Of a DNA stretch of 64,000 nt, positions 5,067-28,833 are shown piece after piece. A model generated the notes under the pieces. The model saw only the letters and a list, made by a program, of their open reading frames with translations, was not told the DNA's origin and did no database searches. How positions within the stretch are numbered: the first letter of the stretch is position 1; every line of letters starts with the position of its first letter. A program made the position numbers and the translations under genes. Source of the DNA: Geobacter sp. FeAm09 (lineage in GTDB: Bacteria > Desulfobacterota > Desulfuromonadia > Geobacterales > Pseudopelobacteraceae); contig NZ_CP042466.1 of NCBI RefSeq assembly GCF_008330225.1, positions 1,436,501-1,500,500 of the forward strand, read 5' to 3'.

Positions 5067-5891
5067 TCACGACCGCCAGGTGACGGTAAGGGGGTTGCGT
5101 TTCGGTGGTCGCTGGTAGCGCAACAGCGGATAGCCGAGCATCATGGCGTGGATCGGCAGGTGGTCCACCGGCAGGTCCAGCGCCTGCCGCAGCGGTTCCC
5201 ACCGGGCGGCCGCCATCTGGAAGAAGCCGGCCCAGCAGGTGCCGAGGCCGAACGAGGGGGCGGCGATCTCAAGGTGTGCAAGGGCGATGACGGCGTCGGT
5301 TCCGGCCACAATGGAGTCCTTGTGGGCGTATGCCACCACGAGGTGGGGGGCCTTGCGGCAGACCGGATCGTTGCCCTTGTCCCAGGAACGGATGATCCCC
5401 TCGAAGTTAAAATAGGCGTTGACCGGCGCGTCGGAAACCATGATGGTCCGCATCCAGTCAACCGCCAGGCCGGCCAGGCGCCGCACCTCGCCACTGTTGT
5501 GGACGACCAGCCAGCGTATGGACTGGCTGTTGCCGCTGCTGGGGGCATAGCGCACCATATCCAGGAGCCGTTCAATGGTACCTCGCTCCACCGGGGTGTC
5601 ACGGTAATTGCGTACCGACCGCCGCATGCGCAGGTAGGCCGCCAGGCGTTCCGGGGCGATGTCGGCCTCGCCGGTTTCGTAACCGTCCGGGACGAGGCGC
5701 GCATCCTCGATCTCCACCGCTTCGCTCGGGCAGACCGCCACGCAGTGGCCGCAGATTATGCAACGGGTGGCGCCGTCCGCCACGTAGCGTGGCTGTTCTC
5801 CCCGGGGAAGCCTGATGATGTCGAGGGGGCAGGCGGCTGCGCACAGGCCGCAGCGGGTGCATCTCTGGCTGTTGATGGCAAGTTTTGGCAT
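5067..5891 (-). CDS. Ferredoxin-nitroreductase fusion protein
   Basis: ATG at 5891 gives 274 residues. Two [4Fe-4S] motifs lie at residues 10-60 (CTRCGLCAAACP, CIICGHCVAVCP). A nitroreductase-family FMN domain follows (RRSVRNYRDTPV, YAPSSGNSQSIRWLVV, and C-terminal HAMMLGYPLLRYQRPPKRNP). Such fusions are flavoproteins that pass electrons from ferredoxin-type clusters to FMN; the physiological acceptor is generally unknown. It sits 26 bases downstream of the DUF362 gene and upstream of the membrane polyferredoxin, forming a redox module. A longer overlapping frame upstream of 5891 is out of frame with the DUF362 gene and is not coding. Confidence 0.88.
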   Translation of the reverse strand: MPKLAINSQRCTRCGLCAAACPLDIIRLPRGEQPRYVADGATRCIICGHCVAVCPSEAVEIEDARLVPDGYETGEADIAPERLAAYLRMRRSVRNYRDTPVERGTIERLLDMVRYAPSSGNSQSIRWLVVHNSGEVRRLAGLAVDWMRTIMVSDAPVNAYFNFEGIIRSWDKGNDPVCRKAPHLVVAYAHKDSIVAGTDAVIALAHLEIAAPSFGLGTCWAGFFQMAAARWEPLRQALDLPVDHLPIHAMMLGYPLLRYQRPPKRNPLTVTWRS

Positions 5892-5917
5892 GTCTCGGCC
5901 GCTCGCTCCGTCGGGCG

Positions 5918-6802
5918 TCAGGCCCGCACCACCTTGATCCGCCCCAGGTCCATCTCGCCCAGGCCCCTCTTGTGGGCGGCCACGATGGTCGGGATATCTG
6001 CCGGCCTGAGGCCGAACAGGGTGGTGGCAAAGGCGTCGGCGGCCACGATGTCGGCGGAGGCGATCACCTTGTTGAGCACCCTGACGTCGGCCATGTTCCC
6101 CCCTTGGGGACCGTGGGCGGTCAGGATGCGGGTGGCGTCGATCACGGTCAGGTGGCTCTTCAGGCGGGCGTTCACATCCGCCAGGGCCGTGTCGAGGCTG
6201 CGATGGATGTAGCCCCGGTTCCCTCCCATGACCCCCATGATATTCTTGAGGCCCAGGGTAAGTTTGGACAGGCCGTGGTGCTTGGCGATTGGGACGTTGA
6301 TGAAGACGTTGGCCGAAAGGGCCTCGTCGTACAGTTCCCACTCCTTGAGGAAGCGGCCGTTCAGGGTCACTTTTTTGAAACGCTCCTGCTCGATCTGCTT
6401 GCACTCCACCTGTTTCATTCCCCTGAGTGCCCCTTCAATACCACTGTTGACGTAGCAACGCCGCGAATCGTTACAGGTATAGTCGAACACCTTGACTTTT
6501 TTTGCCCCGGCGGCCAGGCATTCCTCCACCAGGGCCCGTACCACCTGGGGATGGGTATTGGCGGCAAACTCGGTGGAGCGGTCCCACCCCATGTTGGGCT
6601 TGACCACCACCACATCGCCGGCCTTGACGAAGCGCCGCATGCCGCCGACGGCGTTGACCGCCTTGCGGGTGACGGCCCCGTAATCCTTACCCTCGGCCAC
6701 CGCTACCAGCGGCTGTTCCTTTGCCGCCAGGGCTTCCTTGACCAGGCTGGGGGTAAGAAGGGAGGCAGCGGCCGCTGTCCTTAAAAACTCGCGTCTATCC
6801 AT
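5918..6802 (-). CDS. Tat-exported DUF362 protein
   Basis: ATG at 6802 with AGGAG upstream gives 294 residues. The N-terminus DRREFLRTAAAASLL is a Tat signal (twin Arg, hydrophobic stretch, AxA site near residue 26), so the folded protein is expected in the periplasm. The rest is a DUF362 domain (VVVKPNMGWDR, VPIAKHHGLSKLTLGLKNIMG, ADAFATTLFG). DUF362 proteins are often found with ferredoxins, but their reaction is unknown. No ferredoxin cysteines are seen here. It is the first gene of the redox module and lies downstream of a good promoter. Confidence 0.85.
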   Translation of the reverse strand: MDRREFLRTAAAASLLTPSLVKEALAAKEQPLVAVAEGKDYGAVTRKAVNAVGGMRRFVKAGDVVVVKPNMGWDRSTEFAANTHPQVVRALVEECLAAGAKKVKVFDYTCNDSRRCYVNSGIEGALRGMKQVECKQIEQERFKKVTLNGRFLKEWELYDEALSANVFINVPIAKHHGLSKLTLGLKNIMGVMGGNRGYIHRSLDTALADVNARLKSHLTVIDATRILTAHGPQGGNMADVRVLNKVIASADIVAADAFATTLFGLRPADIPTIVAAHKRGLGEMDLGRIKVVRA

Positions 6803-24743: not shown

Positions 24744-25732
24744 ATGGCGAACAGACCCAAAAACAGAAGATCCAAGCAGAGCCGGGGCGGCAGCCGTATT
24801 GCCGCCCTGGTTGTTGTGGCCCTCATCGTTGCCGCCGCCGGGCTTTACCTGCTGAACGCCCGCCGGGGCCCCGCCCCGTCCCCCGTTTCTCCCCCCCCTG
24901 CACACCAGCCGCCCGCGGCCGGACGGAGCACCCCCCGCCGGCGCACCCCGCGGTACCGGTGGCGCCGGTACCCGCGCCACCGGAGCCGACCCATAAAGAG
25001 TATCCCCGGGAACCCGCCGCCGTGGAAGAGGAGCAGGAGCAACCGGCCCCGGGACGGAAGGATGGCGCCCGTGGACAGTTGGCCGTCATCATCGACGACA
25101 TGGGGAACAGCATGCAGGAGGCCCGCGCCCTGGCAGGCATCGGCCTTCCCGTGACCTTCTCCATCATCCCCGGCCTGCGCCACGATCGGGATGTGGCCGA
25201 TTTCGCCGCCCAGGGCGGTATCGAGACCATGATCCACATCCCCATGCAGTCCAAGGGGTGGCCCCAGCGCAGGCTTGAGGCCAACGGACTCCTGCTCGCC
25301 ATGGACGACGCCGCCATCCGCGAGCATATGGGCGACTATGCGCTCCGCATCCCCCGGGCCCATGGGGTGAACAACCACATGGGCTCCGAGTTCACCGAGC
25401 ACGAGGACAAGATGCGCACGGTACTGGAGGTATTGAAGGGGAGGGGACTGTTCTTCGTGGACAGCGTGACCACGCCCAAGACGGTGGGGCTGCGCCTGGC
25501 GCGCGAGATGGGGGTGAAGACGGCGAAGCGGAACGTGTTTCTCGATAACGAGCAGGACGGCGCCTATATCCGCGGGCAACTGGCCCAGGCGGTGCGCCTG
25601 GCGCGAAAAAACGGCTCGGCCATCGCCATCTGCCACCCGCACCCGGCGACCATCGCCACCCTGGCCGAAGCGCTGCCGACCCTGGCCGGGCAGGGGATCA
25701 CCCTGGTGCCGGTGTCGCGCCTGGTGCGATGA
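24744..25732 (+). pseudogene. Divergent polysaccharide deacetylase, frameshifted
   Basis: The N-terminal part opens with ATG at 24744 and has a membrane anchor (IAALVVVALIVAAAGLYLL) and a Pro/Ala-rich linker, then runs into an unrelated Arg/Pro-rich frame ending at 25154. The deacetylase domain lies in another frame, from about 24935 (possible GTG at 24959) to 25732. It shows QLAVIIDDMGNSMQEA, VTFSIIPGLRHDRDVADFA, IHIPMQSKG, HGVNNHMGSEFTE and IAICHPHPATI, matching the divergent (YibQ-type) polysaccharide deacetylase family. Adding one C to the C6 run at 24931-24936 would join the two frames into a protein of about 330 residues. It could be a real mutation, a phase-variable tract or a sequencing error. 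It follows ctpA by 62 bases. Confidence 0.8.
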
Positions 25733-26031
25733 TTAGTGTTTATTGGTGGGGATGGTAGCACTTCTCGGCCGGCGACCCAGCGCAGGTTCATCGCGACCGG
25801 GTCTGCTGGACTCATTGGACGTTCGTTTCTGACATTGAACACCAGGGCCTTTCAAATACTTTCCAGCTGTGCCCCCAGACCTCCTTCAACTCTGCTTGGA
25901 ATTGAATTTATACGTAATTTCAAGGTTTTAATTCTTTGGTCTCCAAGGGGCCAATTCCCCGCCCCTCGGGGCGATCGCTGTATCCAATAAGACCATAGAT
26001 GCCCCGCTGCTTGCCGCTGGATGATCATCAT
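25733..26031 (+). other. Intergenic stretch without recognised content
   Basis: About 300 bases between the deacetylase stop and the hipBA operator. No frame with a credible start, tRNA or terminator was seen. A short palindrome (GCCCCTCGGGGC at about 25961-25972) is the only structure noticed. Base composition falls toward the hipBA side. Confidence 0.4.
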
Positions 26032-26084
26032 AAAAAATATTTTGTATTAAATCGTGAAGTCCGACATAATATAAAATATTTTTT
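26032..26084 (+). promoter_or_regulatory. AT-rich inverted repeat, probable HipB operator
   Basis: Two 18-base arms, 26032-26049 and 26067-26084, are reverse complements with 17 of 18 matches, separated by 17 bases. Each arm contains the palindrome AAAATATTTT. The pair sits 20 bases before the hipB start, where a HipB-type antitoxin would bind to repress its own operon. The motif differs from the E. coli HipB operator (TATCC-N8-GGATA). Confidence 0.65.
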
Positions 26085-26103
26085 GTGTTATATGGGGTTG
26101 AAA

Positions 26104-26397
26104 ATGACGGAAGACCAACAGCTCTCTTTGCTCGGATCACGGCTTCGCTCTGAACGAATTGGGAGAAACGATTCCCAGGCCGCATTCGCTGCCAGAATCG
26201 GGATCAGTATACCGACGCTCCGCAAAATGGAAGAGGGGGACGGTTCTGTCCGGATAGGGCACTGGGTCCAGGCCCTGAGGGTGCTCAACCGCGATAGGGA
26301 TCTGGATATGATCCTGGCTCCAAAGGAAGACCTCTTTGCCAAATTCGACAGGCTAAACGCTCCTTCCCGCAAACGGGCTTCCAAAAAGAGAGCATAA
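26104..26397 (+). CDS. hipB: HipB-like XRE antitoxin
   Basis: From ATG 26104 (GGGG 8 bases upstream) the product has 97 residues; in-frame starts exist upstream (26092) but read through the operator region. A helix-turn-helix spans about residues 8-55 (LGSRLRSERI, SQAAFAARIGISIPTLRKME). The C-terminus is basic (PSRKRASKKRA). It is expected to bind the inverted repeat just upstream and to neutralise the HipA kinase encoded 15 bases downstream. Confidence 0.85.
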   Translation: MTEDQQLSLLGSRLRSERIGRNDSQAAFAARIGISIPTLRKMEEGDGSVRIGHWVQALRVLNRDRDLDMILAPKEDLFAKFDRLNAPSRKRASKKRA

Positions 26398-26412
26398 GGG
26401 GGATATCCTGGT

Positions 26413-27603
26413 ATGATGTACCGCCTTAACGTATGGTCGCGCCTGACGAGTGAAATACTGGTTGGGGATATGGTCTGCGAGATAGATGATTATGGCCTGG
26501 CACGCGGAGCGTTTCGTTATTCTCCGGGTTTTCTCGAACATGTGGACGCTTTTCCCCTGGACCCGGTATCGCTGCCACTTCAGCAGGAAATCTTCGAATT
26601 CCGCCATCCTGGCGTCGCGAAGGTATTTGAGGACAGCCTGCCGGACGATTGGGGGCGAAAGCTCTTGATACGGAAACATGGGATTCCCCAGCAGAGACAG
26701 AACATGCCTGTCTTGCTGGCCGCTCTTGGCGGTTCGGCTCTTGGCGCGCTGGCCTTTTCCCGGCACAAAAAAGTTGATCCCCCGCTTGCGTATCCATCCG
26801 TTATCAATCTCTCGACGCTTCTCCACGAGGCGGAGAAATTTGAACGTGGCGAGGCACGGGACGGGGAGATAACAATGCTGCTGAGTGCGGGAAGTTCCCC
26901 GGGTGGAGCCCGTCCCAAGGCATTGGTATGCAGCGAGTCGGCCGGAATCGGGTATATCGCCAAGTTTCCAAGCGAAAAAGATACGGTCAATGTGGTCAGG
27001 ATCGAGGCGGCAACCATGTCCCTCGCCCGAAAGGCGGGGCTTGTCGTTCCGAATACGGTTCTGTCGCCGTGCGGGCGCCGCGACGTGTTGCTGGTAGAGC
27101 GCTTCGATATTGTTCCGTCCGGGCGCCGTCACATGATCAGTATGCAAACTTTGCTCAAAGCGGATGGTTATTATGTCGCGCGTTATGGACAACTGCTGGA
27201 TATCGTGCGGCGGTTCAGCGCCGACCCGGCCAGGGATTCCGAGGCATTGTTCAGGCAGATGGTATTTAACGCCGTCATCGGCAACACTGACGATCATCTG
27301 AAAAATTTCTGGATGACGTATGGAGCCGGCGAGGGGTGGAGGCTCTCACCGGCATTCGATCTGGTGCCAAACATCGGGCAGCGGGATGAACACGTCTTGC
27401 TCTTTGATTGTGGCCCGTATCATCCGGGCCGAGGAAAACTGGAGAAATTAGGGCGTTCCTGGGGGGTACACCTGCCCGGCACGGTGATCGGGCAGGTGTA
27501 CGAGGCTGTTTCGACATGGCGGGAGGAGTTTGTCTCCCATGGGGTAGCCGCAGGTGATGTGGACCGTTTCAGGGAAATCGACCGGAACCTTTCCGCGACC
27601 TGA
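26413..27603 (+). CDS. hipA: HipA-like serine/threonine kinase toxin
   Basis: 396 residues. An N-terminal HipA domain (residues 1-110) is followed by the kinase core: a Gly-rich loop SSPGGARPKA, the catalytic segment NTDDH at residues 291-295 followed by LKNF, and the metal-binding SPAFDLVPN. HipA of E. coli phosphorylates glutamyl-tRNA synthetase and causes growth arrest; targets vary among relatives. All key kinase residues look intact, so the toxin is probably active. It converges with ribBA, whose stop lies 24 bases away. Confidence 0.9.
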   Translation: MMYRLNVWSRLTSEILVGDMVCEIDDYGLARGAFRYSPGFLEHVDAFPLDPVSLPLQQEIFEFRHPGVAKVFEDSLPDDWGRKLLIRKHGIPQQRQNMPVLLAALGGSALGALAFSRHKKVDPPLAYPSVINLSTLLHEAEKFERGEARDGEITMLLSAGSSPGGARPKALVCSESAGIGYIAKFPSEKDTVNVVRIEAATMSLARKAGLVVPNTVLSPCGRRDVLLVERFDIVPSGRRHMISMQTLLKADGYYVARYGQLLDIVRRFSADPARDSEALFRQMVFNAVIGNTDDHLKNFWMTYGAGEGWRLSPAFDLVPNIGQRDEHVLLFDCGPYHPGRGKLEKLGRSWGVHLPGTVIGQVYEAVSTWREEFVSHGVAAGDVDRFREIDRNLSAT

Positions 27604-27627
27604 GAAGTATGCCCATGGAAGGCTGCC

Positions 27628-28833
27628 TCAGAGATTCTTCAGCAGGTGCCCCATCTTTGCCTGCTTGGTCTTGAGATACTTGCGGTTGCTCTCGTTGGGG
27701 GGCGCCTCTATGGCGACCCGCTCGATGATGTCGATCCCGTACCCCTGCAGGCCGATGAGTTTCTTGGGGTTGTTGGTCAGGAGGCGGATCTTGGTGATGC
27801 CTAGGGCCAGCAGGATCTGGGCGCCGATGCCGTAATCCCGCAGGTCGGCCTTGAAACCCAGCTCCAGGTTGGCCTCCACCGTGTCGCGGCCCCGGTCCTG
27901 GAGCTCGTAGGCGCGGAGCTTGTTGATCAGGCCGATGCCGCGTCCTTCCTGGCGCATGTAGAGGATGACCCCTTTCCCCTCCCGTTCGATCATCTCCATG
28001 GCGCGGTGCAGCTGCTCGCCGCAGTCGCAGCGCTTGCTCCCCAGGACATCGCCGGTCAGGCACTCGGAATGGACCCGGACCAGGATGGATTCGCCCTTGG
28101 CGAATTCCCCCTTGACCAGGGCGATGTGATCCAGGTGGTCCACGTCGTTTTCAAAGGCGATGGCCTTCCACTCGCCGCCGTACACCGACGGGAGATGAGC
28201 CTCGGCCACGGTGCGCACGAGGCGCTCGTGGCGCAGCCGGTAGGCCACCAGGTCGGCCACGGTGCAGATCTTGATGTCGTGCTCCTGGGCGAATTTCTTC
28301 AGCTCCGGCATGCGCGCCATGGTGCCGTCGTCGTTCATGATCTCGCAGATGACGCCGGCCGGCCGGAGCCCCGCCAGGCGCGCCAGGTCCACCGAGCCTT
28401 CGGTCTGCCCCGACCGGACCAGAACGCCCCCCTTGCGGGCGCGCAGGGGGAAGATATGGCCGGGGCTGACCAGGTCGTTGGAGGTGGCGTTGTCGGCAAC
28501 GGCGGTCAGGACGGTGTGGGCCCGGTCGGCGGCCGAAATGCCGGTGGTGACCCCGTGTTTCGCCTCGATGGAGATGGTGAACGCGGTCTCGAAGGGAGAG
28601 GTGTTGTCCCGCACCATGGGGCGCAGGCCGAGCTCGTCGCACTTTTCGGCCGTCATGGTCAGGCAGATGAGGCCGCGCCCGTATTTGGCCATGAAATTAA
28701 TCGCCTCCGGCGTGACCGCCTCGGCCGCCATGGTCAGGTCGCCCTCGTTCTCCCGGTCCTCGTCGTCGGCCAGGATGACCATCTTGCCCTGCCGGATATC
28801 CTCTATCGCTTCTTCTATGGTTGCTATCGACAT
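27628..28833 (-). CDS. ribBA: Bifunctional DHBP synthase/GTP cyclohydrolase II
   Basis: 401 residues. Residues 1-200 are the RibB domain ([45 protein letters not shown]), making 3,4-dihydroxy-2-butanone 4-phosphate from ribulose 5-phosphate. Residues 205-401 are the RibA domain ([20 protein letters not shown] with three zinc Cys, and [20 protein letters not shown]), opening GTP for riboflavin synthesis. It is the last gene of the operon here; ribH and nusB, which follow in many relatives, are absent. Confidence 0.97.

Follow-up and report, generated by a model that had tools for sequence, protein, structure and literature searches.

A putative paired HipB operator, with a conserved 41-bp spacing, upstream of a hipBA operon in Geobacter sp. 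FeAm09

In Escherichia coli, HipB binds cooperatively to four palindromic operators and so represses hipBA; HipA serves as a co-repressor, and Lon degrades free HipB, according to the sections covered of two papers (PMC3376134, PMC3920265). In the literature covered, HipB operators are described for only a few systems. The hipBST operon of Legionella pneumophila carries three 18-nt inverted-repeat operators with six-nucleotide half-sites upstream of HipB, separated by 53-bp gaps; one of them overlaps the predicted promoter, and HipS and HipT are encoded separately, as stated in the portion covered of the report on this system (PMC10653801). The promoters of Caulobacter crescentus hipBA1 and hipBA2 contain a series of inverted repeats at set intervals, and the parts of the two papers that we drew upon report three operator sites (PMC7029023, PMC8545095). 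On the E. coli K-12 record, we measured the centers of the TATCCN8GGATA sites O1 to O4 to be 28, 39, and 28 bp apart. A Shewanella oneidensis HipBA-operator complex was reportedly described by Wen in 2014. By their entry titles, PDB structures 4pu3 and 4pu4 hold HipB and HipA of this species on operator DNA.

Here, we analyzed a hipBA locus of Geobacter sp. FeAm09 and the DNA around it (the window, meaning the whole stretch of 64,000 nt). Like E. coli K-12 hipBA, it has a HipB-type Cro-like repressor gene, several palindromes that may act as operators over the operon's own promoter, and the order hipB-hipA; unlike K-12, it has two putative operators rather than four, 41 bp apart, each with a 24-bp frame, TAA/TTA ends, and a TTGCA half-site. 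The original prediction held that the motif is unlike the E. coli HipB box. The letters do differ, TATCCN8GGATA being absent at the site, but the 5-N8-5 half-site frame is shared, with the family consensus here reading TGCAA-N8-TTGCA. With up to two mismatches, the E. coli box matched the window 20 times versus 16.6 expected, and none of the matches lay in 25700-26110. The locus resembles those of Legionella and Caulobacter in having inverted repeats upstream of hipB in a known, predicted, or plausible promoter region, and differs from them in the number of sites; it also differs from Legionella hipBST in that HipA is one chain. A literature search by title, abstract, and passage, with the main HipBA-DNA structure papers outside its scope, found no description of this operator. 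HipB operators as such are known; against the literature searched, the letters, the 24-bp frame, the two-site layout, and the 41-bp spacing are new.

The features of the locus are collected in Table 1. The hipB gene lies directly upstream of hipA with 15 nt between them, the gene order of hipBA type II toxin-antitoxin operons. The couple_hipB profile matches HipB with a score under its cutoff. A single-sequence structure model of HipB was poor (pLDDT, 57) and was replaced by one built from an alignment (pLDDT, 83), the best fold match of which is Pseudomonas fluorescens HipB (9u9g; E = 5e-5); weaker matches (E = 0.02 to 0.15) include the Legionella, E. coli, and Shewanella HipB proteins and other helix-turn-helix proteins. 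The recognition helix comprises about residues 36 to 43. The C-terminal tryptophan of E. coli type, called universally conserved among the HipB proteins compared in the part covered of one report (PMC3376134), is absent, and the sequence ends in ...RKRASKKRA. HipA is a single chain that includes the N-terminal domain (Couple_hipA plus HipA_C), and the Asp positions of its catalytic and metal-binding motifs are both retained in an alignment to E. coli HipA (IGNTDDHLKNF and AFDLVP, aligned with IGATDGHAKNF and FYDIIS). The match to S. oneidensis HipA reaches just E = 3e-4. A HipBST identity was excluded, since there is neither a separate hipS nor a short HipT, only a 396-aa HipA with its N-terminal domain. 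A PADLOC search returned weak matches only.

Table 1. Features of the hipBA locus, in window coordinates
Feature	Position	Strand	Remarks
Inserted stretch with operator and hipBA	25733..27614	.	Between deacetylase-like gene and ribBA
Left operator (putative), 24-bp palindrome frame	26026..26049	.	Family consensus TAAtnnAAAatATAgTTTGcaTTA; center 26037.5; includes left arm 26032-26049
Putative -35 hexamer TTGTAT (family TTGCAT)	26042..26047	+	Within inner half of left operator
Putative -10 hexamer CATAAT (family nATAAT)	26065..26070	+	17 bp from -35; overlaps inner half of right operator
Right operator (putative), 24-bp palindrome frame	26067..26090	.	Family consensus TAATgCAAAntATAnTTtnnnTTA; center 26078.5; includes right arm 26067-26084
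hipB, 97-aa Cro/C1-type helix-turn-helix antitoxin	26104..26397	+	Pfam HTH_31/HTH_3
hipA, 396-aa HipA-family Ser/Thr kinase toxin	26413..27603	+	Pfam HipA_C 1.6e-41, Couple_hipA 9.9e-11

The original prediction took a near-perfect inverted repeat ahead of hipB to be a new HipB operator. Its arms (26032-26049 and 26067-26084) are complementary at 17 of 18 positions across a 17-bp gap, exactly as claimed, and the hipB ATG (26104) is 19 nt past the end of the right arm. In a brute-force count, this was the sole inverted repeat of such quality in the 64 kb (18-nt arms with 17 or more matches and a gap of up to 40), and none arose in 1,000 dinucleotide shuffles of 25900-26103 or in 1,000 of 26020-26103. 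The proposal that each arm carries a palindrome of its own was borne out, as AAAATATTTT is present in both (26034-26043 and 26073-26082). The predicted center-to-center distance of 35 bp holds for the arm midpoints but not for the palindromes: the AAAATATTTT copies are spaced 39 bp apart (direct-repeat spacing), while the family-conserved palindromes have a center-to-center distance of 41 bp, or 40 where the gap is 16. On the window sequence alone, the two spacings are about equally good, with 37 of 48 matches at 39 bp and 36 of 48 at 41 bp. In the left operator of the window, the outer TAA is replaced by CAT and the internal palindrome matches at 7 of 12 positions; in the right operator, it matches at 9 of 12. 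The contrast between the AT-rich repeat and its GC-rich surroundings is real, with 20% GC in 26026-26090 versus 59% across the window.

For a comparison with related operons, HipA relatives were searched in 147 related genomes, 107 of which had a match, and 30 loci (L002 to L031) were examined among the matches listed. Another 49 loci were taken from GTDB contigs, where the closest HipA relatives come mostly from Geobacteraceae and other Desulfuromonadales but also from Kiritimatiellae/Lentisphaerae, nearly all in metagenome assemblies. The alignment upstream of hipB contained, after duplicate removal, 27 other operons with hipB present and HipA 53 to 65% identical, which do not amount to 27 independent observations, since several are closely related to one another (e.g., L033, L035, L036, L040, and L041). 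Two of the 27 have a damaged hipA, with a short frame in L010 and a stop in L011. Eight loci whose upstream region is identical to that of another were left out (L002, L032, L038, L043, L046, L048, L049, and L076), as were L077 to L080, which have no hipB match, and nine distant HipA loci also lacking such a match (L012 to L017, L019, L020, and L030). L036, L063, and L066, in which a contig end is too near, were excluded from the spacing, leave-one-out, or distant-group analyses; L009 was shortened in the upstream alignment, its start having been placed far downstream, and was included in the leave-one-out scan.

Column conservation in the 27 other operons is concentrated in two blocks around a weakly conserved spacer, TAAtnnAAAatATAgTTTGcaTTA - 17 - TAATgCAAAntATAnTTtnnnTTA. 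The conserved element spans 65 bp (26026-26090) and is wider than the repeat at 26032-26084. Each block is a 24-bp palindrome, with the family consensus TAAnnnAAA-N6-TTTGCATTA. In register, the mirror correlation between the two blocks is 0.94, and shifting by 1 to 10 positions lowers it to 0.31 or less; the internal-palindrome correlation in register is 0.86 for the left block and 0.82 for the right, dropping to 0.42 or less when shifted by 1 to 8. The blocks thus mirror each other and each is palindromic, so that the element is a 65-bp dyad of palindromes.

When a matrix was built from 26 operons in an alignment that left out the window, the site scored 60 bits and the next nonoverlapping place in the 64 kb scored 19.7. 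When leave-one-out matrices were run over whole loci, the top match fell immediately upstream of hipB in 26 of 26; five of these matches were on the opposite strand, as a dyad permits. The scores ranged from 20.8 to 66.9, the weakest rows being L006, L009, L045, and L052, and other places in the same loci never scored above 16.5. The records are titled Desulfuromonadales, Kiritimatiellae/Lentisphaerae, and Chlorobi. The motif is therefore found before orthologous hipBA operons, where its absence had been named in advance as refuting the prediction. Its family-wide position before hipB supports the predicted HipB operator with one dimer site per arm; the size and the dimer-site spacing of the candidate operator, now 65 bp and 41 bp, had to be revised.

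A -35/-10 pair that overlaps the inner half-sites makes a plausible promoter. The TTG of the -35 hexamer is retained in 26 of 26, 25 of 26, and 24 of 27 other rows, and the ATAAT of the -10 hexamer, which matches TATAAT at 5 of 6 positions, is retained in 21 to 26 of 27. A scan of 25700-27800 with a sigma-70-like consensus reported no promoter by its criteria; it missed the -35 hexamer because TTGTAT matches TTGACA at only 3 of 6 positions, and the promoter call therefore draws on conservation. Transcription would start near 26077.

The window has the layout of a proposed two-operator group, defined by two 24-bp palindromes before hipB with centers 40 to 41 bp apart. In an alignment-free test, the best-fitting spacing of two mirrored palindromes was determined for each upstream region, with 40 shuffles per group as the null; the largest null z was 3.2 to 4.0. 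A spacing of 41 bp came out best in four groups: the main one (23 rows including the window; summed z, 18.0; 15 rows at 41 and 4 at 40), the Chlorobi rows (summed z, 6.1; 2 of 4 at 41), a mostly betaproteobacterial group (summed z, 10.9; 4 of 6 rows at 41), and one that is mostly gammaproteobacterial (summed z, 11.0; 5 of 12 rows at 41). The two-part layout with its 41-bp spacing thus recurs in two more distant groups despite other half-sites. By a count made by eye, 7 of the 12 gamma-type rows have TATAnT at the center of the left operator, so that a 17-bp promoter spacer does not by itself account for the 41-bp frame. The half-site letters vary by group (TTTGCA; TTTCC or GTGCC; mixed), and so does the HipB recognition helix (e.g., SVPTLRKM or SVPTLYKM; SRPTLGKM; SVPTLRRL; SEQTVRAM); judged by eye, the two change together between groups. 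The TAA/TTA ends tend to persist across groups, although in the distant groups they were partly selected, because the score used to choose the centers included most TAA/TTA positions.

Two other HipBA groups, with HipA 31 to 37% identical, deviate from 41 bp. One of them (L023, L024, L026, and L029; HipA 35 to 37%) has a strong operator pair with a 31-bp spacing in 4 of 4 rows. The other, of seven rows (L018, L021, L022, L025, L027, L028, and L031), has TAACGATAATTAT-like arms around TTGACA, with best spacings of 32 and 38 bp.

These comparisons make it very likely that the element is the autoregulatory operator-promoter of hipBA, comprising a paired putative operator for HipB acting with HipA; support comes from the leave-one-out scan, in which the top match precedes hipB at every locus. 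The repeat, its conservation, its symmetry at both levels, its constant position ahead of hipB, and its family spacing are observations; we infer HipB as the binder, repression, co-binding of HipA, cooperativity, and promoter function. In the mechanism that we propose, two HipB dimers, each probably carrying HipA, would bind the two 24-bp palindromes, and a center-to-center distance of 41 bp, about 3.9 helical turns, would place them on nearly the same face of the DNA. Because each of the putative promoter hexamers shares bases with an inner half-site, paired occupancy would exclude RNA polymerase, and loss of HipB, for example through Lon proteolysis as in E. coli, would reopen the promoter and allow the operon to be transcribed.

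It could be argued that a host regulator, either a global AT-binding protein or another repressor, binds the element and that its position before hipB is fortuitous; AT-rich DNA before transferred modules is, as a matter of general knowledge, a typical target of silencing proteins. We regard this as unlikely, given that the element is tied to hipB at all 26 loci, which belong to several phyla, that AT-binding proteins do not need an exact two-level dyad with a set spacing, and that the organism's own genome has no second exact AAAATATTTT pair, single arms with up to two mismatches being found here only. The conserved inner letters are also the -35 and -10 positions, 17 bp apart, as would be expected if an AT-rich promoter (-35, -10, and upstream A-tracts) were conserved and the palindrome were due to chance. 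No mirror symmetry, however, relates the -35 to the -10 hexamer, whereas the columns are symmetric over 24 positions at the in-register r of 0.94, including the outer TAA/TTA, which promoters do not need. The gamma-type 41-bp pair, moreover, persists with TATAnT at the center of the left operator in 7 of 12 rows, and a promoter-only origin appears very unlikely.

Long inverted repeats are equally capable of forming an RNA hairpin or a cruciform or of marking the end of an inserted element, and the module is indeed an insert. We consider these explanations extremely improbable. With a start near 26077, within the right arm, the RNA would lack the left arm; an Rfam search of 25700-27700 gave no match; and internal palindromes are unnecessary for RNA pairing. 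As for an insert end, about 290 bp of the insert precede the repeat, which in other genomes stays close to hipB.

If the element is a HipB operator, it is conceivable, though somewhat short of an even bet, that the protein itself dictates the 41-bp distance. An assembly of the composition (HipB2HipA2)2 would clamp two operators across the promoter, on a single face and four turns from each other; within this HipBA lineage, the half-site letters and the recognition helix would be free to change and the promoter free to move, while the 41-bp frame and the TAA/TTA ends would remain constant in several phyla. That HipA bridges the sites at 41 bp is our proposal, and the geometry of such a clamp would be unlike that of the 28-bp E. 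coli pair. The distinct spacing raises the question of whether HipA-HipB assemblies on DNA, which in E. coli have a link to persistence, come in different fixed sizes. A conserved paired operator that is readable from sequence could also be used to recognize this HipBA lineage and predict its promoters. Half-sites and recognition helices that were exchanged in nature while the geometry stayed constant offer ready-made pairs for studies of HipB-DNA specificity.

A scan of the genome for further copies of the motif, as the original prediction had suggested, gave nine matches to an arm with up to three mismatches, compared to five for a backwards control. Two of the nine are the arms themselves, with 0 and 1 mismatch, and they are the only ones with fewer than three; the other seven have three mismatches, two of them being the palindromic arms in the other reading direction. 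The exact AAAATATTTT pair occurs once in the whole genome. With no further copy below three mismatches, there is no sign of a regulon. Across 141 genomes of the order, the half-site pattern gave 6 matches versus 3 for the backwards control, and 5 of the 6 lack hipBA in their 3-kb loci, the exception being the window's own. The pattern missed all seven other genomes with a full-length close ortholog among the matches listed (G023, G046, G064, G065, G070, G073, and G076); used as an exact pattern, it errs in both directions, being too loose and at the same time too strict. The genome has a second HipA_C gene, of 451 aa (L104, 2701-4056), at about 1,118 kb, the product of which presumably resembles YjjJ/HipH. 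No separate hipB gene was seen beside it, and it was not useful as a comparison.

The hipBA module was very probably acquired, as indicated by gene order and GC3. In four of five congeneric genomes (L093 to L096), the distance between the final codon of the deacetylase-like gene and that of ribBA is 20 to 123 nt, stop codons included, and in the window, 1.9 kb with hipBA separates the two genes. GC3 is 0.60 in hipB and 0.64 in hipA versus 0.86 and 0.90 in the neighbors. The original prediction had seen a hint of transfer in the AT richness of the repeat. This argument fails, because in all 32 relatives compared, the operator region has a GC content below that of the locus around it (13 to 44% versus 44 to 66%), including loci with at least 60% GC. 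In the fifth congener (G001), the same gap is filled by a different hipA-like gene and a small neighbor on the other strand (L102, 984-2504, minus strand); this HipA is 27% identical, and the small gene is weakly helix-turn-helix-like, below the Pfam cutoff. The deacetylase-ribBA gap is perhaps a recurrent landing place, with two different hipBA-type modules in two congeners. About 290 bp of the insert before the operator (25733-26025) contains no recognizable gene, only an 84-codon frame with no Pfam match. G001 also has a hipBA ortholog elsewhere in its genome (L103, about 5690-6680), where it is flanked by an aldehyde-dehydrogenase-family gene and by one for TypA/BipA. Its hipA frame is only 205 aa, and the identity is 64 to 65% over the first 191 to 196 aa, yet no other operator in the set is as well mirrored (23 of 24 positions).
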